A program made the translations under genes and the position numbers. Shown here piece after piece: positions 2,099 through 64,000 of a stretch of DNA of 64,000 nucleotides (positions within the stretch are counted from its first letter, which is position 1; each line of letters opens with the position of its first letter). The stretch is taken from the NCBI GenBank assembly GCA_025765595.1, contig JAIVFH010000007.1, positions 248,001-312,000 of the forward strand. The letters run 5' to 3'. The stretch is from Obelidium mucronatum (lineage: Eukaryota > Chytridiomycota > Chytridiomycetes > Chytridiales > Chytriomycetaceae). Under the pieces are notes generated by a model. It made no database searches, had not been told where the DNA came from, and worked only from the letters and a program-made list of their open reading frames with translations.

Positions 2099-2884
2099 AT
2101 GCGTCGGACTATTCAGAACAGACTCGCTCAAAGGTATATACACTCAATTGTTGGCAAACCTTACGTAAGGGCAGGTGTTGACTCATTCAGTGTGTGAAAA
2201 TTACGAAACAAAAAAAAATATAGAGCATTTCGAAAAAGAAAGGATAATCGAATTAAAGAGCTTGAAGAGCAAGTGGCAGAGCTCGTTCGGGAAAGGAGCG
2301 GTGCGGCGGCGGTGTTGATGATGAGTCGTAGTAGTGCCGCAAAAAACACGAATCAACCTCCAAAGTCGGATCCATCTTCAGACAACTCACGAATTCTTAA
2401 ATTGGAGCAGCGTATCAAGGAGCTCGAAAATGAAAATCAGTATTTGAGGTCGTCAAAGGCATCGCATCTTCCAACATCGTATTGTGGCAGTTTGTCAGCC
2501 GCACCAGTTCAGCATGCGTACCCATCCCAAAATGTTCATTACTATAACGCCGCATCTACTGCATATCCATATCAGTTTTATTCACAGCCTATGGCAAATA
2601 ATATACCTTCGATAGTACATCATGCGCCACAATTACAACTTCAACAGCAACAGCATCCATCTTACTATGCATCAACGTATTTAAAAAATGGGGTAAACCA
2701 ACCAAATATCCCTCACTACTCTCCATGTGCAGAGTTTACTGACCATGTTGGTGACACACTCCGGCAAGATAGCACAAGGTCAAATAGCAACAACCACCTT
2801 CCACAATCACAAATTTCCGTAAATTATATCGAACAAACCTCTCCGAAAGATCAAAATTATCCGTGCGCTCAAGATTTATCATAA
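2099..2884 (+). CDS. B1: Yap-type bZIP transcription factor, intron inside the basic region
   Basis: Exon 1 (at least 2099-2133) and exon 2 (2224-2884) join across a 90-base intron that splits the arginine codon of LAQR/AFRKRK. The spliced basic region reads MRRTIQNRLAQRAFRKRKDN and is followed by a leucine zipper (RIKELEEQVAELVRE). It has the fungal AP-1 signature N-x2-A-Q-x2-F-R. A second coiled coil (ILKLEQRIKELENENQYLR) follows, then a Tyr/Gln/Pro-rich low-complexity tail. There is no C-terminal helical module. The ATG at 2099 sits directly before the basic region, so the true start may lie upstream in another exon. Likely role: nuclear DNA-binding regulator binding as a dimer. Confidence 0.7.
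2161..2168. promoter_or_regulatory. TTACGTAA palindrome (Yap-type site) inside the B1 intron
   Basis: A perfect TTACGTAA lies in the intron that splits the B1 basic region. This is the classic target of Yap/Pap1-type bZIPs. Function here is unproven. Confidence 0.35.
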
Positions 2885-3092
2885 TAATGTTTATTAAAGT
2901 AAATTTTCAAAGTAAAAATAATATTATTATCAAAACCAAAACGACCAATAATGATAAAAAAAATCAAGTCTTAATGTATGCAAAGAAATGTACACGGCGG
3001 GGTATAGTGACGGTCCATCTTTCGGAGAGGTTACAAAAAACTGTGTTCTTCAATTGGGTTACCTACAGATACAAAAAATCGAGGAAAGACAT

Positions 3093-4250
3093 ATGCCACC
3101 CAAACGAAAAGAGCCCGTCACGGCAGCGGAAGAAGCCAAGAAAGCCGAACAAAACCGGCAGCACCAGCGCGACTTTCGCGATCGGCAGAAGGACAAGCTC
3201 AAGCTTCTGGAGGACCGGGTCGCTGAGCTTGAGCGAGAGTTGGCGCTGGCCAGAGGCATCGCCGCTCCGACTAGCAATGCGGCCGAGCAGGAGCTGGCGC
3301 ACTTGCGGCAGCGGCTGGCGCGCGCCGAGGCGCAGAACGCGGCGCTGCGGCATCTGCTGGCGGAGCAGCTGGCGCAGCCGCCGGCGCCGCTGGTTGCGCA
3401 GAGCGGCGACGCGGCGCTGTGGGAAACTTTGCTGCTGCTGGACGGCGGCGCCGAGGACGATGCGGCGACTGCCGGCGGCGTGTCAACAACAACATCAACA
3501 TCAACAAGCCAAAATACACCCACGCCAATGCATTCAAAGAGCCTGCCTAACATGGAAGACGTCCGGCAAGAGTTGAAGCTTCTTTCTTTTCTGAAGGACG
3601 CTACAGCCTTGATTGACGAGTTTTGTGATTATGTCAATGTGAGTTTCGCTCAGCATCATTTTGACAGCATCTCAATTTTGATTTGCTCATCGGCACGCGC
3701 AGACACAGAACCTGGCCAATACCAATCCTCTCGAAATGATGCAAGTTGTCGTTCGCACTAAAAACAACATTCTGGGTTTCTGCAATCTGGAAGAAGAAAA
3801 GAGAACTGTGTTGGATATCTTGGATCGCGGACGCAAACAAAACTCATCTATTGTAGACAACGTCATTGAGAAAATTCAGAGCTTGAGTGTGGTTGAAAAA
3901 AACACTCATAAGCTGAGGAAAGTGGATGCAGATATTGGTCCTGCGTTTGAAAAACTGCGATCTATTTCATCCATCCGAGAATCGACCGAATGTCTCGATT
4001 GTCTTCGAGACTTGGAAGCTGTTTACATCAAGGTGTGTTTGCTTTTTTTTTATGTGCTATTTGACGCGTCAGTAAAAGTGATGCCTGATATACTTTTAAA
4101 TTTCATTGGCAGGAGTTTCAAAACGGAGGTGAATTCGACAAATCCGTAGAAATTTTAAGGCTGAAACACCGGCTCATGAAGCATATAGAACGAGTGGAGG
4201 ACAAGAAGGCCGTGTTTGATGTTCTGCTAAAATTAAAGATTGAAGGTTGA
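3093..4250 (+). CDS. B2: bZIP protein with duplicated C-terminal helical module
   Basis: Start ATG 3093 (MPPKRKEP). Exons 3093-3638, 3703-4032 and 4113-4250. The basic region KAEQNRQHQRDFRDRQKDK runs into a zipper (LKLLEDRVAELERELALA); His replaces the usual Ala of the Yap signature. A GC-rich Ala/Gln/Leu coiled stretch follows. The C-terminal module copy A is VRQELKLLSFLKDATALIDE then FCDYVN, an intron, a helix (RTKNNILGFCNLEEEKRTVL) and ILDRGRKQN. Copy B repeats the plan (KLRSISSIRESTECLDCLRD, an intron at YIK, ILRLKHRLMKHIE, VFDVLLKL). All exons join in frame. It heads a subgroup with B3, B4 and B6. Confidence 0.85.
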
Positions 4251-4309
4251 CACTACTGTATTACTAACCAGTTAAAAAAAAAACCTTCCGTTGTACAGTA
4301 AAAAAAAAA

Positions 4310-5984
4310 ATGCCCAACAAGCGCAAACAAAGTGGAGACCCTGAGGCCGAGGCGCGACGAGCCGAGCAGAACAGACAACATCAGAAAGCATTTCGAGAAA
4401 AGCGGAAGGCGAGGATGCAGCTGCTTGAAGAAAGAGTTGCTGAGCTCGAACGAGAGTTGGCTGTGGCCAGGTCCCACTGCCAGCTTCTGGATCCCGCTGC
4501 TGCGCCAGAAGCGACACCGCCAACATCCGCATCAACCCCTTCTGCGTCCACAGCATTCGCTGAGGCCCTTGGCTCAACCGGCGGGCCTGATTACACTCTG
4601 CCCCCGCTTGCCTGTGACGTCCACCGGCGATTGGCCGAGATGGAGGCTGAAAACGAGGCGCTGAAAGCAATGCTGAGTCAGCAAATCGCATTTGGAATTC
4701 AAGCTGCCGAGGCGGCCGCGGATCCTTCTTTGGCTGCTGCCAGCAGTGGTGGCGAGGTTCGAATACTGTCAAGCAACTCCCAAATACAAGTGCAAATCCC
4801 GCAAGCCCAACTGGAAGTTGGCACCGTTACCCCCAAAGATGTTTTCAATATCAAAGACAGTCAGTACAGAGACGTTGAGTCTGCCGCCGACGACGCGTGG
4901 GATGATCTCTTGAATTTGAGTGATTCAGATAATGAGGATGAGGAGGACCTTGTTCCTCCAAAAGTTGAGCACCACAGAGACAAACTGGACAGAAATGAAG
5001 CTGTTGTTCCGACTCCTGTTGTAACAGGTGATTTTTTTTTTTCTTTTCAATTATTGGTTGTATTGAAACTTCAGTGTTCCTTGAAGACATGCGACGAGAG
5101 CTCAAGCAAGTTCCATCTCTTCAAGAAGCTGATGATTTGATTGACGATATCTGTAATTACATCAACGTAAAGCTTTTTCTTGTTATATTTATATATATCC
5201 TTTTGCAATGCTTGTCTCCTTAAATTCGACAAATCTTTCAGAATCATGACTTGTTGGCAGGCGATCCAGGCCAATTCGTCAAGGATGTTACCCAACGAAA
5301 AAGCAACTTGATCAATCATTGTAAAACAGAGCAAGATCAGACCGCGGTAAGAGTTCTTTTTTTTTTTTTTTTTCGTCTCATTCTTTGTTGTTTTCTGACG
5401 ATTCGCGTAGGTGTACGATATCCTTGATCGCAGCCGCAAGCAAAATGAAGCTGTTGTGAACCGTATTATGCAAAGCGCGAAAATTGTCAAACCCGTAGAA
5501 CCACCCCCCATTCTTGTGCCGTTACCTGAAGAATTGAATGCCAAAATCTCAAAAGACGTTGCCAGGTTGGATGCTTTGAGAACCGTTGCATCATTGAATA
5601 CCCCTGAATGTCTCGAATGGATTGCCCAACTAGAATTGCAATATAAGGTTTTTTCTGTCGTCCACCAAGTTTTTTTTTTTCGTTTTCGTTTTGTTTTAAA
5701 TCCCCAATTGAACTCACCTTTTTTAATTACTTTTTTTTTTTGGTTTACAGAACTGGCGTGAAACCCATCCTCTGGCTTTGCCTGGAGACGTAGATGAATT
5801 TACGATTGGCATTTTTAATCTGAAGCATAACTTGCTGAACAAGCTGGTTGACGACAATGAGCGGAAAAGAGTTGAGTTTTTTTTTTTTTTTTGGTGATGG
5901 GTTTTTTTTTCAACACATCCTAAACTGTCTCCTTCAAAACAAAAAAAGGTTCTGGAAATTCTAATCATATTTTACGAGAAATAA
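4310..5984 (+). CDS. B3: bZIP protein with duplicated C-terminal helical module
   Basis: Start ATG 4310 (MPNKRKQSG). Six exons: 4310-5027, 5075-5166, 5242-5346, 5411-5647, 5751-5870 and 5949-5984, joining without a frame break. Basic region RAEQNRQHQKAFREKRKAR; zipper LLEERVAELERELAVA; second coil RRLAEMEAENEALKAMLSQQ; then an acidic stretch (WDDLLNLSDSDNEDEEDL) that could be an activation region. Module A: MRRELKQVPSLQEADDLIDD, ICNYIN/intron, a helix with NLINHC, intron, VYDILDRSRKQNEAVV. Module B: LDALRTVASLNTPECLEWIA, QYK/intron, NWRETHP..IFNLKHNLLNKLV, intron, VLEILIIF. The donor of the last intron is a weak GTTGAG. Confidence 0.88.
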
Positions 5985-6013
5985 AAAAAAAACAATAATT
6001 AAGTGTTAACATT

Positions 6014-6246: not shown

Positions 6247-7705
6247 ATGCCCAACAAGCGGAAACAGTTGGACGACGCTGAAGCCGAAGCCCGCCGCGCC
6301 GAACAAAACAGACAACATCAGAAAGACTTCCGCGAAAGACGAAAGGAAAAGATTAAGCTGTTGGAGGAACGAGTTGCTGAACTCGAGAGAGATCTGTTCC
6401 TCGCAAAGGCTCAGACTGTGGCTGTCCCAGCAGAACCGATCTTTGCTTCTCTGTCAAACTCAATGGGTGGTGGTGGTGGTGGTGGTGGTGGAATCGATTC
6501 TGAGGAGGCGGCGATGTGTACGAACCAGTGTTTGGAGGGGGGCCAATGTGGCGGCGAGCCAATGTCTTCAGGAATCTTGCAACGCCGCCTGGCACAAGTG
6601 CAAAGCGAAAACAAAACACTCAAAACAATGCTCAGTCAGCAGATTGCTTTTGGCCTTTGCGCTGAAGAGTTTGTGAAGCAGGAGGGCACCAGTACCTTAA
6701 CGTGCGAAACGGCCAGCAGCTACAGCAGCAGATCTATTGAAAAAGAATCACCAGTTTTATTCGATTCCAAGGATGGCCTGTTTGGAGAATCTCATGTTTG
6801 GTCTGATCAGGGCGGCAGCGATCTTTTGGAATTGTCTGGAGATTCCGAAATTGGAAGCCATAGGACATTGCCACCACCACCACCACCGCCACTGACGTTA
6901 AATTATGGCACAGCGAACCTCGCATTCTCAACCATGAGTACGTTTTTTTGTATTATGATGGAAGGATGAATCTTTTTTTTTTTTGTCTCTTTGACTTTTT
7001 GAGAATTTTAGAAGTCCGACAGACACATGAAGACGAAACAATTGATGGCGTCTGTAACTATATTAATGTACGTATTCAAAATTCGCTTAGTGAGAGATAT
7101 TAAACCCTGCCATCTGGATTCAAAGACCCATTACTTGGTTAGGGGGCACCCCCCTTCTGAGACGCCAGCGACTGTATCAAGTAGATACAAGAACGCCAAC
7201 AAAGTATTTCACTTGGAACACCAAAAAAATAGTTTATATAAATTATATTGAACCACAAACTAAAATAGGTGCATGTTGAAAACAACAAGAATAGTGGCAA
7301 AAGCGCCAAGGAAAGATACAAGTGAAAAAAGAATTGTCAGAACGCGATAAATTGCGAACATAGAGGTTATAAACTCCTTGAAAGAGGTGGAGTCCCTGAA
7401 TACTCTGGAATGTATGGAATGGATATCTCAGTTGGAGGCCGAGTATAATGTATCTCCTTTTATTTTAACTCTTTGAAAGATCTGATTCAAGGTTTAAAAT
7501 TAAAGAACGCCAGCGGGTCCACTGAAGTAATTCCAGATTACTACACGGCGGACGTGTTAACCCTGAAGCACAACATTATGAATCACGCACCTGAAGCTGA
7601 GCGGAAAAAAGTTGGTTTTTTGGATGATTTCTCTTGAGTCTTTTCTTAACAGGTGTGTTTTACCATAAGGTTTTTGATCTACTCATCTTATTGAAACGAA
7701 ACTGA
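6247..7705 (+). CDS. B4: bZIP protein, middle of C-terminal region decayed
   Basis: Start ATG 6247 (MPNKRKQLD). Exon 1 (6247-6937) holds the basic region RAEQNRQHQKDFRERRKEK, zipper LLEERVAELERDLFLA, a Gly9 run and the coil RLAQVQSENKTLKTMLSQQ. Exon 2 (7012-7067) gives KVRQTHEDETIDGVCNYIN, a shortened module A missing the PSL core. From 7068 to about 7360 I cannot find an open, family-like path. Family sequence returns at about 7370-7448 (SLKEVESLNTLECMEWISQL), 7510-7610 (VIPDYYTADVLTLKHNIMNH) and a last exon from about 7671 (VFDLLILLKRN, stop 7705). Likely a damaged gene or one with unusual splicing. Sister of B2, B3 and B6. Confidence 0.6.
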
Positions 7706-7835: not shown

Positions 7836-8393
7836 ATGCCCGGAAAACCAAACAAACTGCGTGATAACAACACAAAGAATCCACGCTATCCTCGAAACTT
7901 TCGTGGCCAGGGAAAGTCCAAGTTCAAGGCGCTCCAAGAACGGATCTTGGAACTGGAAAGAGAACTTGCCGTCACCAAAAGTTTCTCCACCTCTGTAACA
8001 CCTGAATCCCCACCAGAATCTTCCAATGTTTGCTATACAAACTTGTTGATGGATTTATCAGAAGATCAATGTTGTGGTCATGCTGTCAACTTTTCTGAAT
8101 TACCAGAGTATCTTCTTGGATGTGACAAGGGACCAGAATCATCTGCAACAGCTCCAATCGCAGATTTTCAGAAACGGTTAACTCTTGCACAGACGGAAAA
8201 TGCTACGCTGAAGTTTGTACTTGCCCAACGAGCACTTTCCATTCAAGCTGCCCAGTTACGTAAGCATCCACCCACAACCTCTGACACCAAAGCCACAGCA
8301 GCAAATACAGCTATTACTACAAAATCAGTACAAGGGAATACATCTGCAGTTTTTTCTCCATTTCATTCGTTGGTTTCCAAGCAAACTCCTTGA
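7836..8393 (+). CDS. B5: bZIP-derived protein with a broken basic region and no C-module
   Basis: Start ATG 7836 (MPGKPNKL). Aligned with B3/B4, the basic region has become NNTKNPRYPRNFRGQGKSKF. The Asn and the FR pair remain, but prolines and glycines interrupt the helix. The zipper is kept (ALQERILELERELAVTK), as is the second coil (FQKRLTLAQTENATLKFVLA). The frame ends at 8393 before any C-terminal module. The long open frame argues against random decay. It could dimerise without binding DNA and so act as a partner inhibitor, or it could be an early pseudogene. Confidence 0.55.
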   Translation: MPGKPNKLRDNNTKNPRYPRNFRGQGKSKFKALQERILELERELAVTKSFSTSVTPESPPESSNVCYTNLLMDLSEDQCCGHAVNFSELPEYLLGCDKGPESSATAPIADFQKRLTLAQTENATLKFVLAQRALSIQAAQLRKHPPTTSDTKATAANTAITTKSVQGNTSAVFSPFHSLVSKQTP

Positions 8394-8524: not shown

Positions 8525-9939
8525 ATGCCAAACAAACGCAAGCAACCCGACGCCGAAGCTCGCCGCGCTGAGCGGAACAGACACCATCAGAAAATATTTC
8601 GAGAGAAACGGAATGCAAAGATTCAGCTGCTTGAAGAAAGAGTTGTTGAGCTCGAACGAGAGCTTAAGTTGGCAGCGCCAACAGCAGTTGACACACCTTC
8701 TTCCATTACTTGCCGTGCTGATATTACTCAAAGGGCTGCTGTGGATCCATCGCTGGAACCAAGAGAGGAAGATTCTGCACATGTTCGTTTGATTCAGTTG
8801 GAAGCGGAAAACGAGGCCCTTCGAGAAGCACTTCGCCGAGAAACGATCTCTGGGCAACATATTTCAGATTTTAATGTGATAGAACCGCGTGGGTCTGACT
8901 GTGATGATGGCGAAAGTACCCTGTTCCGAAAGATCTCTCATACATGCAGAGAAACCAGTACATACGCTTGGGAGGACCTGTTGAATTTGAGCGAGGATTC
9001 TGATTCCGATGCTGCTGTTGAAAGAAAACCGCAAGATACTGTACCCATTGTGACAGGTTTTGTCTTGATTCGAGTTTGGGGTTTTGTCCCGCAGGAATTG
9101 TCTTCTTTATTGAAGATATGCGGCGCGAACTTCGACAAGTTCCATCTCTCCACAATGCCGACGCGTTGATTGACAGCCTCTGTGGTTACATCAATGTTAG
9201 TGGCAGTTCAAACAAAGCTTGACTCAAAGATAAAACAATAACAGAATCACGACTTGTTGAATGACGATCCTGCTCAGTTTCTGAAGGATGTCACGCGAAC
9301 CAAAAGCAACTTGTTGAATCATTGCAAGAACGACGAAGATCAAACAACAGTAAGGCTTGTGCTCATACTGAAGTCTGAGCTTGAAATGTTTTTTTTTTTC
9401 TGTTTGCGATAGGTTCTTGATATCCTCGATCGAAGTCGGCGGCAAAACGAAGCAATAGTCAACCATGTGATGAATAACTTGAAACCAACGGAGGAGCCTG
9501 TTTTACGAGAAGGGAACTTGGATGAGGATCTGCAGGAGAAAATAAACGAGGACGTTAAGAAACTGGATTCTTTGCGGGATATCAAGTCGTTTAATAACCT
9601 GGAGTGCCTTTCCTGGATTTGCGAGCTGGAGGTGAAATACCGAGTATGTACAAGTCGACGTGTTTCTTTTTTTGGATGACAGCAACGTAGCTTATTGAAG
9701 CCTAGGCATGGCGGGAAGTGACTCCTAAAACATCGCCAGATATTGTGGATCAATACACTATTGATATTCTGCGACTAAAGCACAATCTGTTGGATTGCGT
9801 GGTTGGTGACGATAAAATGGACGAGAGAAGAAAGGTTTGTTATTCTGCTTTTCTCAAATCTGCTTGTATCATTAATAGCCGAGGTCTTGTGGGAAAGGTC
9901 TTCGAGATCTTGATTGTTTTGGCGATAGAAGGAAAATAA
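8525..9939 (+). CDS. B6: bZIP protein with duplicated C-terminal helical module
   Basis: Start ATG 8525 (MPNKRKQPD), matching the conserved start of B3 and B4. Exons 8525-9056, 9095-9195, 9245-9349, 9413-9643, 9706-9834 and 9898-9939 join cleanly. Basic region RAERNRHHQKIFREKRNAK; zipper LLEERVVELERELKLA; coil LIQLEAENEALREAL; acidic patch DLLNLSEDSDSDAA. Module A: MRRELRQVPSLHNADALIDS, CGYIN/intron, LLNHCKNDEDQTT/intron, VLDILDRSRRQNEAIV. Module B: LDSLRDIKSFNNLECLSWIC, KYR/intron, AWREVTP..DILRLKHNLLDCVVG, intron, VFEILIVLAIEGK. Exon layout matches B3 intron for intron, so the two are recent duplicates. Confidence 0.88.
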
Positions 9940-9977: not shown

Positions 9978-11167
9978 ATGGCTTCAGATACAATTGAAAG
10001 GCGTCGAGAACAGGTAAACGGAGTATTCGCCGCACTTGCCTGCTGTTATGAGACTTTGCCCTTGCTTATCCAACAACTCTTGGCAACACAGAACCGCACA
10101 CACTCTAAAGCTTATCAGCAACGAAAAGACACGCGAATAGTTGAGCTCGAACTTCAAGTTAAAGAGTTGGAGCTGATTTGGCAGGCAAAGGCAAAGGCCA
10201 AAGTGTGCCGACAATGCAAAACGTCCATTCTAAAGCCCTCGAATGAAGACTGCACAAGCACAGTAGTGGATCTTCGGGAAAAAATTCGAAAGTTGGAAAT
10301 GGCAAATGAAGCTTTAAGGTTGAGACTGAGGGGTTCGCAGTCAGCAACGACGATTGCCCCATGTATTCTGCCGGTTTCCACTCCCAAAGCCCCAACTGGT
10401 ACATATTTGGCGGAACATGTCACCAATATGGACCATACTATGCCGCGTATGAATCCAGAGCCAGTAAGAAGGGAACTGAAAGGCGTACCTTCTCTTGCAG
10501 ACCATCACGATTTGATTGATGCTTTGTGCAATCTGTTTATTGTGGGTGATCTTTAACGTGTTAGAATTTCTCGTTGATCGTATCTCTTTTTTTAGACTCC
10601 GTCGTTGCGATTGGACACCATAGCACAGGAGACGACGAGACGAAGGAAAATGCTCTTGGATTTATGTAGCAACGAAGACGACAAACTTGAGGTGCAACTC
10701 TTCATACCTTTTCTATCTGAACCCCAAAATCATTTTAACTGCTTGTAAAGGTTGCAGTTGTTATGGATCGTTCACGTCGCCAAAACGCTTCATTCTTTAA
10801 CCGTGTGAGGGATATTGCAGAACAATCAGCAGTCCGGAACTACAGTTGTGTTCAAGAAGATAGGGAACTAGATCACGAGCGCTCTGTATTCCTGGCGCAT
10901 ATTCGTGATCTACCCACCAAAGCACCTTCCCTTCAAAATGCAGCGGGCGCTCAATTACTACAAAAATTGGAGAATCTTTACAAAGTAGGTTTATCAATTG
11001 GCCAGAATCGCCGCCTAATTACAAAATTCTAGAATCATTTAATGGACAACACTGATTACACAACTTTGGCTATCGTGGAGATTAAATTCAAATTAGTAGA
11101 TATGGCAGAAAGCGTTACCGAGCGGGAAGCAATTCTACACCTGTTTCTTTTGTTGGGCACATTCTGA
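9978..11167 (+). CDS. B7: divergent bZIP protein with two C-terminal modules
   Basis: Exon 1 is tiny (9978-10013, MASDTIERRREQ). A 78-base intron then leads to exon 2 at 10092. The spliced basic region is RRREQNRTHSKAYQQRKDTR; the terminal invariant Arg of N-x7-R is Gln. Zipper VELELQVKELELIW, then a CxxC (VCRQCKTS) and a second coil (LREKIRKLEMANEALRLRL). Further exons 10092-10541, 10596-10691, 10751-10984 and 11033-11167. Module A: VRRELKGVPSLADHHDLIDA, LCNLFI/intron, MLLDLCSNEDDKLE/intron, VAVVMDRSRRQN. Module B: a weaker copy ending IKFKLVDMAESVTEREAILH. The stop lies only 4 bases before the condensin ATG. Confidence 0.8.
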
Positions 11168-11171
11168 AGGA

Positions 11172-14100
11172 ATGGAAATAAAGATGGAGGAAATCGATGC
11201 CGCCCACGCTCACATTGTAGACATATTCAGCCAAGCATCTCTCGACACGGCATCGCATTCGCGTTTGGCCAAAGAGCTGCTTCTGATGGGGCCATCCGCA
11301 GCGGGCAAAAAGAGCTCAAAGAAGCCAGTGGCCACTTTGGAACTGAAGCCATGGCTGTTGGGTATCTGGAAGTGCATTCTCTGTGTGCTTTCAACGAAAC
11401 GCGTTGCAAGAGAAGCCGCGCAAAAATCACTCAGATTTATTGAGTCTCTTGTGAAGAACAGCGAGTCATGCGGGGGAGGTCTGGTTTTGACGTGGTTTTG
11501 GGCCCTGTCTAACTTTATTTGGCAACATCAAACCATCAGACTTGAACCAGCAGACTTTTGTTACTTTTCTGCTGACCAGACTAAGTCGTGGCTCGAATGC
11601 CAAGCAGGCGCATGTGCGGTTCCGTGTTTGCCAATTGCTGTTTTTGCTTCTGAATCACGTGTCCGAAATCGAGTTTCGTAACTTTTTGTAGTATTTTCCA
11701 GGACTGATTAAAATACTAGTGACGATATGCATCAGGTCCTAAAGACCGTGCTGATTCAACGCAGTCATGACAAGGACGCGCATGTTCGTGTCCAGGCCTC
11801 AATGGCTCTGACGCGTTTTCAGGGCCCTCCAGATGACGTGGACGAGCAAGTTGTTGATGTATTAATTGATTTGATGACTGGCGATCCATGCGCGTGAGTT
11901 TTTTTTAAATTGGTTTTTGTTGATATTATCACTGACACGTCCCTCCCCAACATCCAGAGATGTTCGTAAAACTCTGCTATGGAATACAGATCTCTCATCC
12001 CGATCGTTAATCCCACTTCTCCAACGTGCGACTGATGTGGATGTTGGAGTCCGTCGAATGGTTTATCAAAAGTTTGCAGCCAGTATCCCAGATATGTTGG
12101 ATCTACCACGCGAAGTGAGACTTGCTCTTTTGACCGTTGGACTTAAAGACAGGTTCGTATGATATCAACTTTTCCCTGTCAATGGTCACTGATTTTTAAT
12201 TTTCCAGAGATGCGGGAGTGAGAAAAAAGTGTAAAGCCCTTCTTTGCGATGTGTGGTGGAAAGTTCGGAAGTGGAATGCCGTTGAAGTGAGTTTTTTTTT
12301 TATTTGGGTCGAGAACCACTGACCTATTTTTGCACTATATAGTTTCTGAAAGAACTTGACGTCCGAACAGTTGCCGCCGAAGAGGCCCTTGCTGCACTCA
12401 TTTCTGCTAATTTAATTACAACTGACTTTGTTACTGGTATTTGATGATAATGCAGCAGCGCGATTCTTGGTATTGATCCCAAAAACCCAAAAACATAGAT
12501 CAAATGTGGAACGAAGAGTTGACGCTAGAATTTGTTTTTTTCGCAAGCATTTATGCTCGCTCTCTCAATGAAAAGAAGGCGGAAGAAAAATTGCAGGACT
12601 TTCTGCCTTCTCTCACCTCAATGGCGACACTTCTGTCAAAGTTTGGGGCTTTGATTGTTAACCCACCGTCTGAGGACGAAAATGAAATTAAGGCAATCGA
12701 ATTTGTGCTATGTAGGCTGCTTCAGATTACAGAGTATCACGACTTTTCCGATGAGATGGGGAGACGTTCGGTTTCTGACTGCATTGGTAATAACACAACT
12801 TCCACTCAACTTGAAATTGAATGTTGCTATAATCTCAGCCAAGCTACTCGTTTGTGAAGATCTTCCAACCGAGAATTTGCAGTTTATTATTCGAATCCTT
12901 CAAAAAATGTCCATGACAGAAGCAGATGTTCTTTTGTGAGTGTGATGGCTTGATTATTCCTAGATCATTCTGATGCTTTTTACCTTATAAAGAACCGTAA
13001 CTGATGCTGTCTCAGATATTTTGGAGGCATCTGAAGATATGGCCAACACTCAAGATATCGAGCCTGGAATGCATAAACTGCTGGTTCAAATGCAATGCTT
13101 AGAAATTATCCGTGCTTTACTGGAGCAAATTCAAAAGCCGCCATGCAAAGATAGCTCTTTCCTTGTTTTACTCCACAGATTTATTATCCCAAGTGTCAGG
13201 AGCAATAACGCATTGTTGAGACAGACCGGTATCCACTGTCTTGGTCTCGCATGCTATATTGACAGGGTATATATCCATCACTTACTTGAAAATCCCAAAA
13301 GAAAACTCAGTTGCTTACATCTCCCATTTATTTATTCAGACCCTGTCTTTAGAGAATGCAAACTTATTTCTCCATGCCTTCCAAGCAGAAGAAAATGACG
13401 GCAAAAAGATTGTGCTTCAAATTCTGTTTGACTTGATCATGGTTCATGGAGTTACAGTCGTGGATTTGAATGCAGTTGTCGTTTTTATTCTGGCTTGTTT
13501 GCAAGATGAGGATCCTGGGTTGCTGACTTTGGCAGCAGAGGGAGCTACAAAACTGATGATGATGAAGTTCATTGGGAATGAGCAGGTAGGCGCGATTTCG
13601 TTTCATTGCTTTTGGTTGGCTCTCACTGAAAGCGGGTTTCTCCCATTTTAGATTCTGGAAGCCTTGCTTGTGTTGTATTTCCACCCATCGACAGTTAATC
13701 AACGCCGCCTGCGCCAATGCCTTACGTGCTTCTTTCCCATGTATGCTCTCTCTTCCGCTGAGAATCAAGCACTTTTGGCTTCCAGTGTTATCGCCGCTTT
13801 CACTAGCCTGACATTGGAGTTTGAGGAATCTGGTGAAGGAATTGCGCCATCTGATGTAGCTGCCCAGCTTGGTGAATGGACAGATTATCGTCGGCTTGTA
13901 TCGATGGAGCAGCAAGCTGCGAAGGGCACCGATGAGCCAAGCTCGGTTCACGGGCTTGTGGCCATTTCGCTGTTGGAAGCAATGATGAAGGAACCAGATA
14001 TCCAAAAAGAAGGGAGCAAGATGCTCAATATCTTATTTATTGACTCTACCGTCGGCGATGATCAAAAGAAGCGCATCCTGAAGCTTTGTGGAGATGTTCA

Positions 14101-14342
14101 ACCGGTAAGTCCATTTGTTATGAACGGGGTTTGCGTTTTTGAATTCAATATGCGGGTGTAGATGCTTGTTGTGGATCCTTCTGCTTTAAAGAGTTTAAAG
14201 AGGTGAAGAGGATATTTGTTGTTTCTTGATTTGAATACTACTCACACTTGGAATTTTTGCCACCAGATTCATGCTCAAAGTTCAAGATCCGAAAAAGAAG
14301 CAGAATAATGAAGAGGAAGAGGATTCAGAGGAATCGGATTAA
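11172..14342 (+). CDS. YCG1: Condensin complex subunit 3 (CAP-G / Cnd3 family)
   Basis: A HEAT-repeat subunit of condensin, which shapes mitotic chromosomes in the nucleus. Thirteen exons join in frame: 11172-11478, 11540-11672, 11720-11893, 11958-12152, 12208-12286, 12343-12436, 12499-12786, 12839-12935, 12993-13266, 13340-13585, 13652-14104, 14162-14202 and 14267-14342. Family hallmarks: VLIQRSHDKDAHVRVQASMA, DVGVRRMVYQKFAASIPDM, LLRQTGIHCLGLACYIDR, DPGLLTLAAEGATKL and the diagnostic LYFHPSTVNQRRLRQCLTCF then FPMYALSSAENQ. It ends in an acidic tail. Start ATG 11172 or 11184 (MEEIDAAHAHIVDIF). It is the only clear housekeeping gene here. The donor of intron 2 (GTTTCG) is atypical and was chosen because it keeps frame. 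Confidence 0.9.
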
Positions 14343-51881: not shown

Positions 51882-51997
51882 TCCCCCCTCCTCCCCCTCT
51901 TGCCGGGTGGTGGTTTCGCGCCTCCCTGTAGCGTTTGCTTCGATGACTTGACGTTGGCGTTCTGACGGTTGTGGTAGCTGCGGATGAATTCAGCTTC

Positions 51998-54530: not shown

Positions 54531-54943
54531 TTGCGAAAGTTTCCCTTATTCTTCCACTTTATATTTCTAATTACTTTCTTTTAAATTTCATTCATTCCAA
54601 ATTCGGCTTGTCTAATGTTGCGGTCGTTGCTGCTGTGTTTTTTTCCATATTATCTATTAATTGCTTCCACTTATTAAAAACGGCCAATATTCTCGATGGA
54701 TCCATGTGATTTATTTTTACTTCATCATTTCGAAATAAACTCGGTGGGTAGTGGATACGCAATCTTCTCTCCTCCCTCTCCCTTCTCAGATCATGTACCT
54801 GCCTTTCATTGTCTTCTTCTTCCCCTCCGCTGCTGGTTCGGCTTCCTCATCTTCATCCCTTTGTCCGGGGTGATTAAGTATTCCATTCTGAATTCCAGCC
54901 CTGCAAACTTGAGGGTAACTGAGAGTCCTCCTGTCTGGTGATT
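54531..54943. other. Unassigned stretch inside the retroelement
   Basis: About 410 T-rich bases between the pol region and the gag-like segment. No protease motif and no family-like frame was recognised. It could be degraded protease/gag DNA or an inserted sequence. Confidence 0.35.
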
Positions 54944-55451: not shown

Positions 55452-56764
55452 TCACAAATAGAAGATATCTTCCAAGCAATCAAAAGTGAACTTGACTTCA
55501 TCCAAATCCATTTGCGTCACACATTTCCCAACCAGCGTCTTTTGAATCCTACGGATTTGAGCATCAAGAACGGGTCGCTGCTCTTTATGCAACGTGAATT
55601 CCTGTGCATTTGTATTTGAAAAATATTCTAAATTAAGCCAACTTCAAGATAAATACCTCATAAAGCCGACATAACTGATCAAGAGTATCACCATCATTTG
55701 AAAGAGCAGAAACATTCCGTAAATGTCGAATAAACTCGAAAGGATCAGGAAACTCTTTATCCGTTTTTATGGAGTATTCCCTCTTGACTCTATCAAACAT
55801 CTAAAACAGCGTTTTAAGATACAAACAGATTCCAAAAAAGAAGAAGAGGAAAAAAAAAAGACAACATAAGGAACCTTTTCAACTAAAAAGCGATCCACAT
55901 GATCGCTGCAATACTCTAAAATCTCATTCTGTGACCTCTTGATTTTGCCCAGAGTAATTCGGCATTGCACGGGATTTGTTTCACGAGTTTGGAAATCCGT
56001 GTATCGAATGTACCATTGAATCAATTTGTCGACGTGGCTGGAAACTTCTGGATGTGCCGCTAAACTGGGAATAATCTTCAGTTTAGACTTGATTCCCGAG
56101 AAATGAGGCTGGATAACTTCTTCGCTTGACGGTGGGACGGGTAGCGGTGCATTGAGGAGTTGTTCGAGGTTGACGTTTTGGATTTCCAAAAGATTCTCCA
56201 AATTCAGATCCGCATGAGTACCAACGAAAGTATCGAATTGGAGAAGCGTTGGTGGTGTAATAAATTGTTGAGGCTGTTGTAGTGACGGGTTTTGCTGAAA
56301 CAAGTCATTGAATATATCGGATTGAAGCGGGTCCATGTCAACCAAACCAAACTGCATTTGTCGCAATTGGTCGTTTTCTTTCTCCAGCTGAGAAACTCTG
56401 GTACGTAAAGCTTCGGCTTCTCCATTTCCTCTGGAGAGAGCGGCTACAGTAGCTTCGAGATCTTCGACATATCTTTCGGTTGCCACGTCAGCCATCATCC
56501 AACTTGCGATTACATTTATAGAGCTCCTAGGCTTACTTTTGTTTTCTTTCCCTGTATGCTTTTGCATTCAATCTAACCTGGGCAATGCGCTTTGTCTGTG
56601 CCTTTGATCAGAACGTGATAAAATCAGGATAGTCTTTTTACCGCTGGTTCGGAGACATCAGGTTTACGTCCTGGTCCACCTTTCCGCTTGAGTGCTTGCT
56701 TTTCTACCAGCGGATCGTCTCCCGAAGCACTAGCACCGCTACTTGCTGTTTCGAGCTGATTCAT
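55452..56764 (-). CDS. B33: bZIP protein (Val at the invariant Asn) with two modules
   Basis: Start ATG 56764 (MNQLETASSG). Exon 1 ends GRKPDVSEPA; exon 2 is TKRIAQVRLNAKAYRERKQK; exon 3 starts YVEDLEATVAALSRGNGEAE, coil LRTRVSQLEKENDQLRQMQF. LEQLLNAPLPVPPSS is the family linker. Module A: GIKSKLKIIPSLAAHPEVSS, VDKLIQWYI (no intron), KRSQNEILEYCSDHVDRFLV/intron, MFDRVKREYSI. Module B: EFIRHLRNVSALSNDGDTLD, QLCRLYE/intron, IRRIQKTLVGKCVTQMDLDE, stop 55452. Frame intact. Exon layout around the basic region matches B30. Confidence 0.8.
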
Positions 56765-56837
56765 ACGTTTTTTTTTTGCAAAGGTGTTTTAAAATATAAA
56801 ATTTATTAATTTATAAATACCCCCCCAAAAAACAAAC

Positions 56838-57301
56838 ATGGCATCAAACTCTCGTCTGGTGGCACTCGAAGCTCGAATCAAAGTACTAGAGGCTAAAGCG
56901 GATGAGTACGAGACTGCGCTTAAGCTGGCGAAGGGGACCGACATCGACAAGTACATCGGACTCCTTCAGAGCGCCAACCAACACCATCAGAGCGCCACCC
57001 TCGAGAAAGTTGCGCTCATAACGAGAAGTTGCGCTCATAAACGAGAGGGTGGCGACAATCAGTAGTGCTGGACAAACTATGTTCTCGACTGGTGCGTCTA
57101 GGCGTGGTTCTCTTTTGTATTCAACTCATCGAAGCCAATGTTATTTTGCAGAACTTTGGCTGCCGTTCTTGTCGTCATTCTCACTGTCTTTGATTTCATC
57201 TACGAAGAACAGTCGTGTAAGGCCCTGTCGTGTTTTATTGGAAAAGGAAAACGACTCTTGTTTGGAATCGGATTTGCCGTCGGTTTTCGTCTGGTGAATT
57301 G
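56838..57301 (+). CDS. Small coiled-coil protein with C-terminal membrane segment (possibly broken)
   Basis: ATG 56838 opens MASNSRLVALEARIKVLEAK and a helical stretch (YIGLLQSANQHHQSATLEKV). Near 57015-57045 a 19-base near-duplication (GTTGCGCTCATAA) shifts the frame. The shifted frame continues NERVATISSAGQTMFST to a donor near 57091. After an acceptor near 57153, TLAAVLVVILTVFDFIYEEQ and LLFGIGFAVGFRLVN end at 57301. This looks like an N-terminal coil plus membrane segment. The family is not recognised and it has no bZIP features. Confidence 0.4.
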
Positions 57302-58074
57302 AATGGGCCAAGATCTGGACCTCGCAAACGACGAACGCAGCAGGTCATTGAGTGAATGAACAAATTGAGGATGATGAGGCAGTGTTGTTGAATCGTATCA
57401 GTCGTTGATAGACAACAACAGTGGTACAAAAACAATTCACACGACTTCAAACAGTTTTGCATTGACGGCGCTTGTCCTGAAGCCTCTGTTGATATCGTAT
57501 TTTTTTTTGTGCAGTAGTCCGACGAGCCCAATATCTGTTTTTTTTTTTTTTTTTTTTTTTTTTTTGGTTTTCTCAGCCGATTCCTTTTTTTGGAATTCAT
57601 GTGGAAACCGTGTGGGCGTAACTTATTCCCCCCCCCCCCCCCCCCCCTGTAGCCTTAAGTTTGAACAATGAAAGACAACAGCTGAATCGGCCCAATTGAA
57701 GCAAAAAAAAAAAATTTGATGTGGTGATGCCACCCAAAAATTTAGAAATATAGCGCCTCCCAAAGAGCGCTTTGATTTTGGAGCGTACGTAAGCCAAGAC
57801 AAAAAAAGTTAACGACGAAACAGGATAACGACTTGGGTTTTTTTTTTCGAAAACAACCCAACTACTTTCTAAGGGGGTTTGGTCTCCTCTTTTTGAAGTT
57901 TTTTTTACGGGACAATCTGAACAACAACATTTATGAAATGAGATAAAAATTAATATATGGGAATACGATTTATTTTGTTTGTTGCAGATATAAGTCAGTT
58001 GTGTGTGGGGAAAAAAAACTCTATAAATTAATATAAAACGCGGATGCAGTAAAAAAGGCCTCTGACCACAATTT
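57302..58074. other. Intergenic with T and C homopolymers
   Basis: About 770 bases without a recognisable gene. It holds a T run near 57537-57564, C20 at 57628-57647, several shorter A/T runs and a TACGTAA element (57786-57792). Confidence 0.45.
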
Positions 58075-58570
58075 TTATATCAAAGAAGACAAGGAATATG
58101 AATTCATATCCACCATGGGAAAGAATGCATTATTGTCCGAGACTGGCAGAGGTAACGGCGGACTCATCATAATCAAGAGACTCAACATTCCATTGTTTTC
58201 TTGTTCCAACTGCGCGATCCGTTGTTTGAGGAGTTCGTTTTCGGGATTGAGACTTGTTGCCGCTGCTGAGGTGTTGTATTTGGGCCTCTAGTTCTTGTTT
58301 GTAGGTTTCCTTTTTTTGGCGGAATTTACGGGCAGCATCTCGGTTTTGAGATCTCCGTTTGTCTGTTGCAGGGCGGTGGTAGACTCGCTTCGTCTTGTTG
58401 AGTATGTTGCTGGTGGGTGAAGAAGCTTCGGATTGTGGTGAAGCCATCGACATTGGGCTCGGAGAGTCTGGGTTGTTGTTGTATTCGCTGTTTGCGCTGC
58501 TGTCGAATGTTGAGCTGGAACTCAAGGCTGGCGATGACGATGCATCATAGTTGTAATCCAGTAAGCTCAT
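58075..58570 (-). CDS. B34: short bZIP protein without C-module, frame change in the zipper
   Basis: Start ATG 58570 (MSLLDYNYD). A Ser-rich N-terminus, then HRPATDKRRSQNRDAARKFR and QKKETYKQELEAQIQHLSSG. A one-base change near 58262 continues the zipper in a clean path (NPENELLKQRIAQLEQENNG) to SYSLSSLI, stop 58075. Without the change the protein would end in a non-heptad tail at 58130. Canonical Asn and Arg are present. No intron, no helical module. Confidence 0.65.
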
Positions 58571-58948: not shown

Positions 58949-59398
58949 TCATTGGTTTCCAAACAATACAAAGTCCAGACTGTCAACAGTCGAGGCTGAA
59001 GTTGCGGACGTAGCTGTAGTTGAAGGAGCAGTGGAGTCCGATAGCAGCTGCAGAAGCTGGTTGTTTTGTTCCAGTTGCGTTTGGAAGAGCAGGTTCAAGT
59101 TGACTTGCGGCGATCCCGAGGGCGACGCTAGCTGACTCTGACCGTTGCCGAAGACCAGCGTGGCGTCCCTCAGCTGGCGGTTCTCGAGCTCGAGCTGCGC
59201 CAGGCGCATCTTCAGGGCGGCGTTCTCGATGCGCTCGCGGTCCCGCAGCGCGGCGACCTGCGCCTCGAGGGCGTCCAGGTGGCGGCGCTGGCGCTCGCGG
59301 AAGGCGCGGGCGGCCTCGCGCTTCTGGTTCTGGCGCTTCGTGGCTGCGGGCGCGTCGGCGGGCTTGCGGCCCTTGCGCGCGGCGTCGGCGGGCGGCAT
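58949..59398 (-). CDS. B35: short bZIP protein (Lys at the invariant Asn)
   Basis: Start ATG 59398 (MPPADAARKG). Intronless, 149 residues, GC-rich first half. Basic region APAATKRQNQKREAARAFRE, zipper LDALEAQVAALRDRERIENA, coil LKMRLAQLELENRQLRDATL, then a Ser/Thr/Gln-rich tail ending DFVLFGNQ. Aligned on REAARAFR, Lys stands where the base-contacting Asn should be; an Asn lies two residues earlier. No helical module. Divergent from B36 across a 271-base shared promoter. Confidence 0.8.
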   Translation of the reverse strand: MPPADAARKGRKPADAPAATKRQNQKREAARAFRERQRRHLDALEAQVAALRDRERIENAALKMRLAQLELENRQLRDATLVFGNGQSQLASPSGSPQVNLNLLFQTQLEQNNQLLQLLSDSTAPSTTATSATSASTVDSLDFVLFGNQ

Positions 59399-59669: not shown

Positions 59670-60978
59670 ATGGAGTTCTTCACGCCGTCGCTGCTCGATC
59701 TGTCGACGCTCGCCGCCTTTCCCGTCGCCGACGCCGCCGCCGCCGCCGCAAAGAAGGGTGCCGCCAACGCCAAGCGGCGGGAGGCGCCCGCCGACAAGGA
59801 CCTCGAGAAGGACAAGCCGAAGCGCGGGCGGAAGCTGGCGCCGCTGCCCGAGGAGCCGGAAAACAAGCGGCTCGCACAGAACCGCATCGCCCAGCGCGCC
59901 TTCGTAAGTGGACGATGGCGCCATCGGATTACACATGCCCATTACACATTACTAACACTCCACCCAGCGGGAACGCAAAGTCAACCACGTCAAGGAGCTC
60001 GAGACTAAAGTCGCTGAGCTGACCGCCATCATTGAAGGAAGCGAGCAGATGGCCTCCGTGCTCCAAGTCGCTGAGCTGAAACAAAAAGTCAAGGAATTGG
60101 AAGAACGCAACAAGCAACTCGTTGAAGAGAACCAGCAGCTGCGACAAATGACCTTCTCCTTTGATCCAAAGCAAGCCGAACTGTCTCCTGTCGAAGAAAT
60201 GGATGCCTCGAATTCCCTGTTTATGACGCCATCGTCGCTCAACTCATTTGGTACAAACGCAGACTTTGCCAATCTAATGATGCCATCGATTTCGCCAACT
60301 GCTGCATCTATCGCCAATGTGAACGATGCATCGTCCTTCTTGGAGCCAACTTCTCAGTTTCAACAACAACCCATCTCACCATCCACCAACACAATACCAA
60401 CAACAACTACTTCTGCTACGACTCCACCTTCAGTTTTAGATTTCATGTCACTTCTCAACTTTGACACTTTCCGCAATACCCCTCCTGCCCCAGGAATGGA
60501 TGCATTCCTTTTCGATGACATGGAACTCGAATCCCTCCTGATGGCCCCACAGTCAAACTTTGCTCCCGTCGTACCACCACCACCAGTCACTACTGCACCT
60601 GCTGTAGTCAGCAACCTCCCACCCACAAAGCCAGTCATGCCACTTGAAAACTTGAAAAACTGCATGTCTCACAAAGCCTCCATTTCCCCAGACTCCATGA
60701 CACTCCAATTCGGATGCGTGTCAAAAGCACTCACATCTGTCCCCGCATTGAGTGAAAAATGCGAGCTTGTGGATGAACTATGTAACCTGTTTGTCGATTT
60801 CACTACCGAATGTGATGTCAAGGAAACAAGGCTTGCTTGTCCGGCTGAGTTGATTAGTATGAAGCAGAAGGTGTTGCAGGAGGCTGGGGAACCGTACCGA
60901 GGGTATGTCGAAGGTGTGTTTGATCAGGTCAAGGTTCAGTTCCAACAGCATTTGCAACGGAAGGGGATTCAATCGTGA
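59670..60978 (+). CDS. B36: bZIP protein with one C-terminal module
   Basis: Start ATG 59670 (MEFFTPSLLDLSTL). Exons 59670-59903 and 59968-60978, joined at AF/RERK. Exon 1 is GC-rich with PKRGRKLAPLPEEPENK and RLAQNRIAQRAF; exon 2 gives RERKVNHVKELETKVAELTA, coil LKQKVKELEERNKQLVEENQ. A Ser/Thr/Pro-rich middle has DTFRNTPPAPGMD, resembling B27 and B28. The module: CVSKALTSVPALSEKCELVD, ELCNLFVDFTTECD, SMKQKVLQEAGEPYRGYVEG. Canonical Asn and Arg. Closest relative is B28, which has Ser at the Asn position. Confidence 0.87.
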
Positions 60979-61278: not shown

Positions 61279-61311
<33 letters not shown>

Positions 61312-61916: not shown

Positions 61917-61951
<35 letters not shown>

Positions 61952-63154
61952 TTTTTTTTTTGTAAAAGAAAAATAAAAGAAAAAGATTTTTACATAATAC
62001 AAGTCAATCACATCATCAACGAAATTACAATTCTGTAGAGACCCGAGTTGTTTGAGTTCTTGACGCGCGTATTCTACTTGTGGGGGGCCGTACATTTCTG
62101 TTGCGGTTTTCTTCTTGGTGCTGCCGCTACTACTACTACTACTACTACTAGTTCTAGGACAAGTATTATTATCATGATCCCATGGCCCCGCTAATACTGA
62201 TACTGCTGGTGGCGACGTTATACTTGCCATACTGTCGGTTTGGATAGGTGATAGTTGTTGTTGCATTGGAAGGACAGAGGTAGTTTTGGTGGCGGTATAT
62301 AGGATGGGGTTCTGTTGTTGCGGGGAGACTTGGTTCATTGGTGGAGTTGGGATATGGATTGTGTTGAGCCAGTCTGAGAATAATGGGGTTTGGAAGAAGG
62401 AAGGGTTGATGATGGTAGTGGTGATATTTGAAGATGACGAAGAAAGAAGAAGTGGAAGTGGGAGGAAGAGAGGGGGGAGGAAGGGGGTGAGGTAAAGTCG
62501 CTGTGGTTGAAAGAGGTGGTGGCGGTGGTTGTGGTAGTATCGTGGCTTGTTTTTCAAGAGGGGATGGAAAGCTGTTACTTCTGCTGACAATTTGGGGGAC
62601 GACATCTTGTTGTTGCTGTTGTTAATATTGGCGCCAATGCAAATTGATTCTTGGACTTGAAGGCGAAGCCTTTGTTCGAGTTGAGCAATAACTAAGGCTT
62701 GCCGATCAATTTCAGCTTGTTTCAATGAGCACGGAATGCAGTGAGGAAAATCAGTCGCCATTTTGTCCCGTAAGGCTCGATTTTCGGCTTCGAGAGTTGC
62801 TAAATGTGTCATGAGGAGTGAGTTTCCGCTTCCATTATTGGAATTTATGAGGGCTTCGTATCTGTCAACTTTTGCTTGTAGCTCCTTTTTTTTTTTTTGA
62901 AGTCTTCTTTTAGTCTGACTACAGGGTGTATTTAAAAAGAAATCATCCACCTTTTGATGTTGCTCTTTGCGTTCACGATACGCTTTCTGGGCTTGTCTTA
63001 CTTGGGCGACTCTTCGCTCACTGACTTGTTTCTTCAATTTCTTTCTAGAATGGGTGATAAGGGATGATGACGATGGGCTGCTGCTGTTTTCACTTGTTCC
63101 CGCAGATCTTGTATCGATGCGAAGTAACTTGCTTTGTTCATCGTCGGTTGACAT
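61183..63154 (-). CDS. B37: bZIP protein (Val at the invariant Asn) with modules and an in-frame stop
   Basis: Start ATG 63154 (MSTDDEQSK). Exon 1 gives SERRVAQVRQAQKAYRERKE, ending HQK at an intron. Exon 2 gives ELQAKVDRYEALINSN, coil LATLEAENRALRDKM, a CxxC (HCIPCSLK) and coil LVIAQLEQRLRLQVQES. Module A: TATEMYGPPQVEYARQELKQ, LGSLQNCNFVDDVIDLYY/intron with a G-run, SVATKHLMYNTCVNVLDRVK, ALAIVDSIEDRNKLHV. Module B: ITCQSIESFRNHESEVDEIA, then TAG near 61508, then LVMSPFDSNGPGG in the same frame, ERFFRLIELVNRLLGVCRNE, MQAVEVGRHAGPGKQKV/intron, IKTKDEMMNVLQDIL (stop 61183). The TAG fits a CAG-to-TAG change. Confidence 0.68.
61279..61306. repeat. A28 homopolymer in a B37 intron
   Basis: About 28 consecutive A on the plus strand, in the intron before the last B37 exon. 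Confidence 0.7.
61918..61951. repeat. C34 homopolymer in a B37 intron
   Basis: About 34 consecutive C on the plus strand, G on the coding strand. It is followed by a T-run, inside the intron that splits module A of B37. Confidence 0.75.
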
Positions 63155-63237
63155 AAGATAGGTTCTGGAATTTCTTTTTGTGAAGCAGGTTCGAAACACA
63201 TTATTGCTTGTCACTTTTTAATATTATTACATTTTAA

Positions 63238-63429
63238 TCACTCCATCGATTGCACACTGTTGAACATGTCAGACTGCAAGAAAAAAAGGAAAGATTTATG
63301 AAGTCACAAGAGAAACAAGAAAAGTGAAAGGGGGAAAAAAGAAACTCACAACATGATAATTATTGATTTCTCTTCCGATTTCAGTTGCAAGAAGGAACTA
63401 GTTCATTTTTTTTTCATTACAAGGGCATT

Positions 63430-63461
<32 letters not shown>

Positions 63462-64000
63462 CAGTACGAGGTGTTAGCAGAAAAAAAAAACTCACCTTGG
63501 TCCTGTCTTCTTCAGAAACGCAATCTCTCAGCAATTTCGCAAACAAGTCAATCATTTTGAAAAAGATGGCTTCCCGTTCGGGTCCCCTTACACGCGTCTG
63601 AGTCCAAAAGAGAGCGCATAGTTCGTTGATATCGGTTGACGAGTTTGTCAGCGATGGAATTCCCGCAATCGCTTCTTTAAAAGGTGCATCTGCTTGTGGT
63701 GGTACTTTTACTAGAGGTGGGATACGAGGTGAGGCAGTCATAGAATCGGCGCCGCTGAGAGTCGGCATATGGGATGAATTATAATAAATATGGTTCTATA
63801 ATTGTTTCAGTTTAAAAAGACTCGAAATCGAAAATTCGACGCGGCAAAAATCTTACAACGTGCAGCTTATTCCTCAATTGTACTTCATCCAAAATCTCCA
63901 TTACTCTCGCACGATCGAGAACACTGCACCCATTTAGAATCTTGTATTTTACAGCAGCGCTTTTGATTATAGATTTCTTGAGTACTGTTCGTTTGGAGCA
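63238..64000 (-). CDS. B38: C-terminal modules of a further bZIP-family gene, 5' part outside the window
   Basis: Partial at the right edge. The first visible exon gives SIIKSAAVKYKILNGCSVLD, RARVMEILDEVQLRNKLHV, i.e. the second half of module A, ending at a GTAAGA donor near 63857. The next exon gives FKEAIAGIPSLTNSSTDINE, LCALFWTQTRV and MIDLFAKLLRDCVSEEDRTK (module B). Then an intron with a long T-run, FLLATEIGREINNYHV, an intron, and SDMFNSVQSME (stop 63238). The layout matches B15, B16 and B37, so a bZIP region upstream is expected but not seen. Confidence 0.7.
63430..63461. repeat. T-run in a B38 intron
   Basis: About 32 consecutive T on the plus strand, inside the intron after EEDRTK of B38. 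Confidence 0.7.

Follow-up and report, generated by a model that had tools for sequence, protein, structure and literature searches.

A tandem array of Pap1/Yap1-like bZIP genes, five of them with two bZIP domains, in the chytrid Obelidium mucronatum

Transcription factors of the Pap1/Yap1 family, which carry a basic leucine zipper (bZIP), have roles in stress or nutrient response, and in well-studied fungi they are encoded by one or a few genes dispersed through the genome. To our knowledge, DNA-binding genes seldom form large arrays of paralogues unless they belong to the zinc-finger or homeobox families. By contrast, dozens of Pap1/Yap1-like bZIP genes lie in tandem in a stretch of 64,000 nucleotides from the chytrid Obelidium mucronatum (GenBank assembly GCA_025765595.1, 48.3 Mb in 694 contigs; contig JAIVFH010000007.1, here C7, positions 248,001 to 312,000), which is referred to as the window; their DNA-contact residues are diversified, and five of the genes encode two bZIP domains each. 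We consider it probable that the locus is an old tandem array that grew by repeated local duplication, whose members have since diverged and, where they are testable, are under purifying selection. Positions given without a contig name count from the first nucleotide of the window.

Among described systems, the zoosporic oomycete Phytophthora sojae shares an expanded bZIP family with Obelidium, with 71 bZIP candidates, tandem duplicates, and members (C, V and R classes) with another residue in place of the basic-region Asn, according to the available part of the report (PMC4046829). However, Phytophthora belongs to an unrelated lineage, the runs named there comprise about five genes each (PsBZPc24 to c28 and two similar runs), and the term 'two bzip' is absent from the paper. 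The bZIP genes are reported to have expanded 3.25-fold in the ancestor that chytrids share with derived fungi (PMC10406608), but this gain is expressed as counts, and the accessible sections name no tandem array, double-bZIP protein or loss of the Asn. Two bZIP domains per predicted protein are likewise described for VRI candidates in the Asterias and Magelona transcriptomes, as far as the accessible text of that source goes (PMC9939569); these are isolated animal transcripts, set beside the Obelidium genes by description. No report of a bZIP array or of a two-bZIP protein in chytrids was found in the open-licence PubMed Central literature.

Size, membership and origin of the array

Enumeration of GT-AG introns combined with a profile built from window members identified 40 bZIP copies in 35 window genes (31 copies on the minus strand and nine on the plus strand), in addition to the 3' end of a further gene and to one unit at 51.1 kb that an integrase-like insert splits. 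The window had originally been predicted to hold an unbroken run of about 38 units, 36 with a bZIP region, one zipper-only and one partial. The array itself is real and larger than predicted, while the exact tally differs; the supposed zipper-only unit is the bZIP unit split by integrase-like DNA at 51.1 kb, and the interrupting condensin, Zn2Cys6 and retroelement genes that had been noted were found, so that the run is not unbroken, with a further 27-kb bZIP-free gap in its flank. Among the 40 copies, the one at 7.9 kb has a degenerate basic region and the one at 35.5 kb contains a frame break. The enumeration gave 70 raw loci in the window, counting overlapping splice variants; copies below 18 bits were excluded before the copies were counted, as were zipper-only stretches at C7:198,944, 205,845, 250,387 and 269,427, which were read as second coils of neighbours. 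Since the profiles are derived from the array, the chance level was tested separately, and the identical enumeration found no loci in two dinucleotide-shuffled windows and none in 69 kb of nearby DNA (C7:219-244k and 318-362k).

A six-frame search with Pfam bZIP_1 (E<=0.001) returned 41 places in the genome, of which 8 are in the window, an undercount that arises because introns often interrupt the basic region; in many units the intron lies after AQRAF, or after RIK directly before ELE. For the same reason, a regular-expression search for the Yap motif recovered a minority of units and was superseded by the profile and splice enumeration. Once spliced, 42 of 43 bZIP domains were accepted by bZIP_1 at E<=0.01 (34 of the 40 window copies and nine flank copies, the window copies at 7.9, 26.6, 35.5, 41.2, 42.6 and 44.2 kb standing outside this test), which contradicts the concern that most members might lack a bZIP domain. 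In readable window copies, the first zipper Leu is present in 39 of 39 and the second in 35 of 38. The single spliced model that was compared with an annotated gene (47314-45902, minus strand) equals BDR26DRAFT_634109 of O. mucronatum (100% over 452 amino acids); the enumeration therefore recovered this gene exactly.

The best match of the 43-copy array profile in the Protein Data Bank (PDB) is Pap1 (1gd2, E 2.3e-16), followed by 7aw7 (6e-13), and 32 of the 39 window copies that are readable retain the Gln of the Yap-type NxxAQ basic region. Judged by sequence, the array members are Pap1-like, in agreement with the Yap-type assignment of the original prediction, and by analogy the founder type suggests a role in stress or nutrient response. 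The exact NxxAQxxFR contact motif is found in 8 of the 39 copies, and the basic-region Asn is kept in 26 and replaced in 13 (by Val in seven, one of these in the frame-broken domain of double-bZIP gene B described below, by Gln in two, and by Ile, Thr, Ser and Lys in one each). There are 23 different five-residue contact signatures among the 39 readable copies, and all 40 zipper strings, like all 40 basic-region strings, are distinct.

Neighbouring copies resemble each other more than distant ones. Domain identity averages 43% over all pairs and 51% over adjacent pairs, with a maximum of 84%, and at the DNA level no two window units match better than 80% over 148 bp; these values indicate that the duplications are old. 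The similarity of adjacent copies exceeds that in 5000 of 5000 reorderings, whether the window is taken by itself or all 65 copies of the array with its flanks are included, as expected from the tandem origin first proposed for the locus, and in the 22-copy left block it exceeds 4989 of 5000 (11 reach it). For the window and for the whole array, none of the 5000 reorderings likewise reaches the observed relation of similarity to rank distance. Selection was assessed in the 13 units present on haplotigs C588 and C507 (five of the 35 window genes and eight units of the left flank), for which the pooled ratio of nonsynonymous to synonymous divergence between haplotypes (dN/dS) is 0.30 (dS 0.034, dN 0.010; 58 synonymous and 59 nonsynonymous changes). 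Divergent contacts and zippers under purifying selection would fit factors with separate targets and partners.

The order of the copies is backed by the same two haplotigs, which provide an independent check over approximately 20 kb of it. Over 10 kb, C588 runs collinear with C7:251.7-261.6k (95.4% identity by BLAST, 97.6% ungapped), with identical bZIP order, and C507 is collinear with C7:208.1-218.2k over 10 kb (95.5% by BLAST, ~97.6% ungapped). DNA self-comparison of the window revealed no near-identical units open to misjoining. C588, C507, C563 and C337 look like segments of C7 or C56 from the second haplotype (86-97% identity in the main BLAST pieces), and the assembly therefore keeps haplotypes separate.

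Including its flanks, the array extends over C7:171,023-316,632 and comprises 65 bZIP copies in 60 genes (doubles merged), with 21 copies at C7:171.0-217.2k, one at 244.4k, the 40 in the window, and then copies at 313.0, 315.1 and 316.6k, the last of which (C7:316,632) has no clear basic region. Within the stretches of C7 that were examined (85-95k and 168k-362k), no bZIP was found in the 27-kb gap at C7:217.2-244.4k or to the right of 316.6k up to 362k, and three further bZIPs lie in C7:85-95k. A generic bZIP query of the whole genome gave at least 82 exon matches at E<=1 (all counts being lower bounds). Of these, 42 fall within C7:171-317k, the window accounting for 26, and another 3 lie at C7:87-91k. 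Seven contigs regarded as haplotigs (C588, C507, C563 and C337 by alignment; C669, C385 and C430 by matching scores only) contribute 21, and the other 16 are found elsewhere, including 8 on C56 and 3 on C105.

Double-bZIP genes and the C-terminal module

Five genes between 33.6 and 44.5 kb, all on the minus strand, contain two bZIP domains each. Both domains lie inside one uninterrupted open reading frame (ORF) in gene C (36608-37927, 439 amino acids; domains 37864-37691 and 37570-37457), gene D (40621-41478; domains ~41223-41110 and ~40827-40672) and gene E (43727-44443; domains ~44221-44114 and ~43891-43733), and in D and E, spliced models of the first domain were discarded in favour of these open ORFs. 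Introns cut both domains of gene A (33998-34632; domains 34632-34451 and 34192-33998), and a frame break falls within the second domain of gene B (35397-36152; domains 36152-35890 and ~35515-35397). Genes C and D are separated by one bZIP unit (40000-40164, minus strand), whose typical upstream stretch is in a different frame, and between D and E lies a single bZIP gene (41953-42912, minus strand; basic part 42591-42517) that clusters with the second bZIP domain of E at a support of 92.

Homology searches, which scored the best 8000 candidates (repeated for gene C with residues 15-250 as query), identified two-domain relatives in Siphonaria sp. JEL0065 (two genes, HDU68_005770 related to gene C and HDU68_005768 related to gene D), in two species of Entophlyctis and in Chytriomyces. 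These two-bZIP relatives have a common type of linker, HGNLKxLP...LPxxRR, which is weakest in HDU68_005768. Both domains of HDU68_005770, HDU68_005768 and the Entophlyctis and Chytriomyces relatives P0003 and P0005 match Pfam bZIP models (8 of 8 pieces, E 1.6e-9 to 0.0069), and the first domain of D (E 2.3e-5) and that of E (E 0.0072) match as well, giving matches for 10 of 10 double-gene domain pieces, several of them below the curated cut-off. In a domain tree of 34 columns (rows with at least 20 filled columns; copies at C7:255,893 and 316,632 excluded), genes C and D pair one-to-one with HDU68_005770 and HDU68_005768, with support of 99-100 for each domain, and the Chytriomyces first domain is placed apart from the other first domains, without support. 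The two Siphonaria genes are two locus tags apart, both on contigs listed at 32,098 bases, and from these tags we infer microsynteny with the C/D region of Obelidium.

Within the Obelidium genome, a search with gene C returned the gene itself and two single-bZIP places on C7, with no allele and no second gene of this kind. In its annotated form, P0008 of Chytriomyces hyalinus keeps the second domain, the first being a remnant. P0004 of Entophlyctis luteolus begins, in its annotated form, with a stretch resembling the C-terminal module described below and continues with two bZIP domains, as would result if the model had absorbed part of an adjacent bZIP gene; this layout hints at a bZIP array in E. 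luteolus as well. The two-bZIP proteins may be the part of the array that deserves a family of its own.

Many of the single-bZIP genes are followed by a module of approximately 80 amino acids with the pattern LKxIPSL...LVDELCDLF...VLxxC..EDR. Matches above 8 bits occur after 19 of the 30 single-bZIP window genes and after 38 of 55 in the whole array, compared to none of the five double-bZIP genes; because the matches are split by introns, their number does not equal the number of modules. Two full modules are clear downstream of the 33.4-kb copy (bZIP 19), at 32358-33027 on the minus strand (~94 bits each, both in the seed alignment), and for 9 of the 13 module seeds the best match is their own source or near it. 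No Pfam family matches more than one of the 13 seeds, and both the ROH1-like Pfam match of one copy (E 1.1e-4) and the PDB matches (best E 0.013, V-ATPase subunit E) were taken as chance. The module is not confined to the array: a whole-genome search gave at least 58 exon matches at E<=1. Smaller bZIP clusters, with C-terminal module matches there too, are seen at C56:166-174k, C56:211-218k, C105:39-57k and C7:87-91k.

Weighing the explanations

Several observations count against reading the locus as an old Pap1/Yap1-type array maintained by purifying selection. In the left block alone, the correlation of similarity with rank distance falls short of significance (a value as low arose in 417 of 5000 shuffles), and most deep branches of the 34-column domain tree are unsupported. 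Among the 13 haplotype-compared units, one is cut short by a stop at codon 190 of 214, and three contain indels that are not multiples of three (C7:208413, at an alignment edge, 210473 and 252334), some of them perhaps within introns read through by simple gene models, while members at 7.9, 35.5, 40.1 and 51.1 kb look damaged. As a further difference from Pap1/Yap1, PF08601 (PAP1) was not reported for four proteins at E<=5 or for 13 modules at E<=1, in searches whose filters drop most matches above about 0.1, and in profile comparison the link between the module and the Pap1 C-terminal domain is weak (probability 39.8%, E 3e-4); the sequence pattern of the module resembles that of the Yap1/Pap1 C-terminal domain, and a relation to the Yap1 redox domain is possible.

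The degenerate or broken reading of four window units, together with the retroelement inside the array and the related fragment that splits one bZIP unit, could also be taken to mean that the majority of members are pseudogenes left by runaway duplication. We regard this as improbable, since the pooled dN/dS over the units found on two haplotigs is 0.30, zipper leucines are retained, C-terminal module matches follow most single-bZIP genes, and genes C and D have relatives in Siphonaria. It is scarcely credible that the array is an artefact of a collapsed or chimeric repeat region; while the assembly consists of 694 contigs with haplotypes kept apart, the collinear haplotigs carry the same bZIP order, which contradicts such an error for the two stretches they cover, and the window offers no near-identical units for misjoining. 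The double-bZIP genes might in turn be annotation fusions of two neighbours, given that the array is dense, that joining the domains needs an intron in gene A and crosses a frame break in gene B, and that the two-bZIP proteins of other species are gene predictions, among which P0004 resembles a fused model. However, C, D and E are each one uninterrupted ORF, Pfam bZIP models match both domains of the Siphonaria, Entophlyctis and Chytriomyces relatives as well as the first domains of D and E, and the linker between the two domains is conserved, making a fusion very unlikely.

A different question is whether members lacking the Asn or carrying odd contact residues bind DNA at all. CHOP and Id proteins titrate partner factors, and the 13 readable window copies with a replaced Asn and intact zippers could be titrating partners of this kind in place of DNA-binding factors. 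In these members, though, the remaining basic region is still basic, and Phytophthora bZIPs with a replaced Asn are described, in the available part of the source, as expressed and possibly of new specificity (PMC4046829). Titration thus seems a possible but rather doubtful account of these members, and the array of old, diverged Pap1/Yap1-like genes remains the explanation that we favour for the locus as a whole.

Layout of the window and significance

The first seven units lie on the plus strand: bZIP 1 at 2081-2317 (intron 2134-2223 within the basic region), bZIP 2 at 3126-3284 (open segment 2958-3758), bZIP 3 at 4334-4498 (ORF 4310-5140, with an allele on C588) and bZIP 4 at 6271-6423 (ORF 6247-6969), the last three being of the NxxHQ type, then unit 5 at 7836-8393 (an ORF of 185 amino acids whose basic region is degenerate and whose zipper is readable), bZIP 6 at 8540-8701 (start 8525, stop 9169) and bZIP 7 at 9987-10211 (intron 10014-10091). 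The C-terminal domain of a Cnd3 condensin subunit follows at 13664-14161 (plus strand, E 1.3e-25), among the few unrelated genes within the array. On the minus strand, introns interrupt bZIP 8 (15710-15905; intron 15827-15761), bZIP 9 (17151-17376; 17301-17247), bZIP 10 (19683-19844; 19788-19720), bZIP 11 (20467-20626; 20602-20545) and bZIP 12 (21489-21693; 21639-21564), with a Zn2Cys6 cluster between bZIP 9 and bZIP 10 (17517-18335, minus strand; E 4e-4, 20.8 bits, slightly below the Pfam cut-off of 21). After bZIP 13 on the plus strand (22419-22577; ORF 22323-23189), the minus strand carries bZIP 14 (24435-24608; ORF 23994-24668), the basic part of bZIP 15 (26446-26605, with a second intron at 26445-26376 ahead of the zipper), bZIP 16 (28188-28413; intron 28353-28254; C-terminal module matches at 26992-27540), bZIP 17 (30141-30335; Asn to Ile), bZIP 18 (31927-32163; Asn to Val) and bZIP 19 (33309-33479), which has the top six-frame bZIP_1 score in the genome (50.8 bits).

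Beyond the double-bZIP genes, the units are on the minus strand unless stated otherwise. A bZIP at 45504-45670 (Asn to Gln; stop 44568; C-terminal module 44843-44574) is followed by the gene equal to BDR26DRAFT_634109 at 45902-47314 (domain 47104-46922; Asn to Ser; C-terminal module 46219-45941) and by bZIPs at 48013-48202 (Asn to Gln) and 49182-49354 (Asn to Val). The broken unit occupies 50739-51600, with its basic part near 51550-51420, then the integrase-like insert, and the zipper from ~51090 downward; the insert aligns with the integrase part of the 52-55 kb retroelement (60% over 35 amino acids, 79% over 19 and 57% over 14). The retroelement itself lies at 51950-54600 on the minus strand, with a reverse transcriptase at 53555-53947 (E 5e-15) and an integrase core at 52274-53038 (E 2e-8). 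Further bZIPs are located at 56421-56604 (Asn to Val), 58211-58381 (ORF 58130-58570), 59246-59356 (Asn to Lys), 59853-60048 on the plus strand (gene 59670-60978; C-terminal module 60709-60954) and 62837-63028 (Asn to Val), and the window ends with C-terminal module matches or exons of the next gene (63406-64000), whose bZIP is at C7:313,009. Two other repeats were noted: a 648-base sequence at 56822-57461 is 92% identical to C7:326460-327085, right of the array, and the bZIP-free C7:217-244k holds a 1.9-kb direct repeat (232217-234110 and 234617-236516, 90.6% identical).

The original prediction for this DNA did not include the double-bZIP genes, the replacement of the Asn, the C-terminal module or the continuation of the array past the window. 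In the mechanism that we propose, each product would dimerise through its short zipper, aided by a second coil, and bind Yap-like sites, and the altered contact residues combined with 40 different zippers would allow many homodimers and heterodimers that differ in the DNA they prefer. By analogy with the Yap1 C-terminal domain, the module may be a regulatory part. Members without the Asn may bind other sites or serve as dominant-negative partners, while the two-bZIP proteins would place two half-site readers on one chain and may be built-in dimers or bridge two sites. More speculatively, and in our view rather unlikely as a whole, one Yap1-like locus could have given the Chytridiales a 'dimer bank', that is, a conserved block of dozens of bZIP genes differing in contact residues and zippers, with the two-bZIP proteins as a separate family of single-chain dimers or site bridges, for combinatorial control of life-stage or substrate programmes; if so, the two-bZIP proteins would represent a novel architecture among transcription factors.

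The array is a natural series of related bZIP domains in which contacts and zippers are varied, and the rules that connect sequence, dimer choice and DNA site are therefore directly testable with it. The two-bZIP proteins raise a structural question, namely whether the two domains pair within one chain. In addition, the locus may account for part of the bZIP gain in chytrids, which the available part of the source gives as counts (PMC10406608). For Obelidium itself, the array represents an unusual reservoir of regulatory genes, with roles and binding sites as predicted here from sequence.

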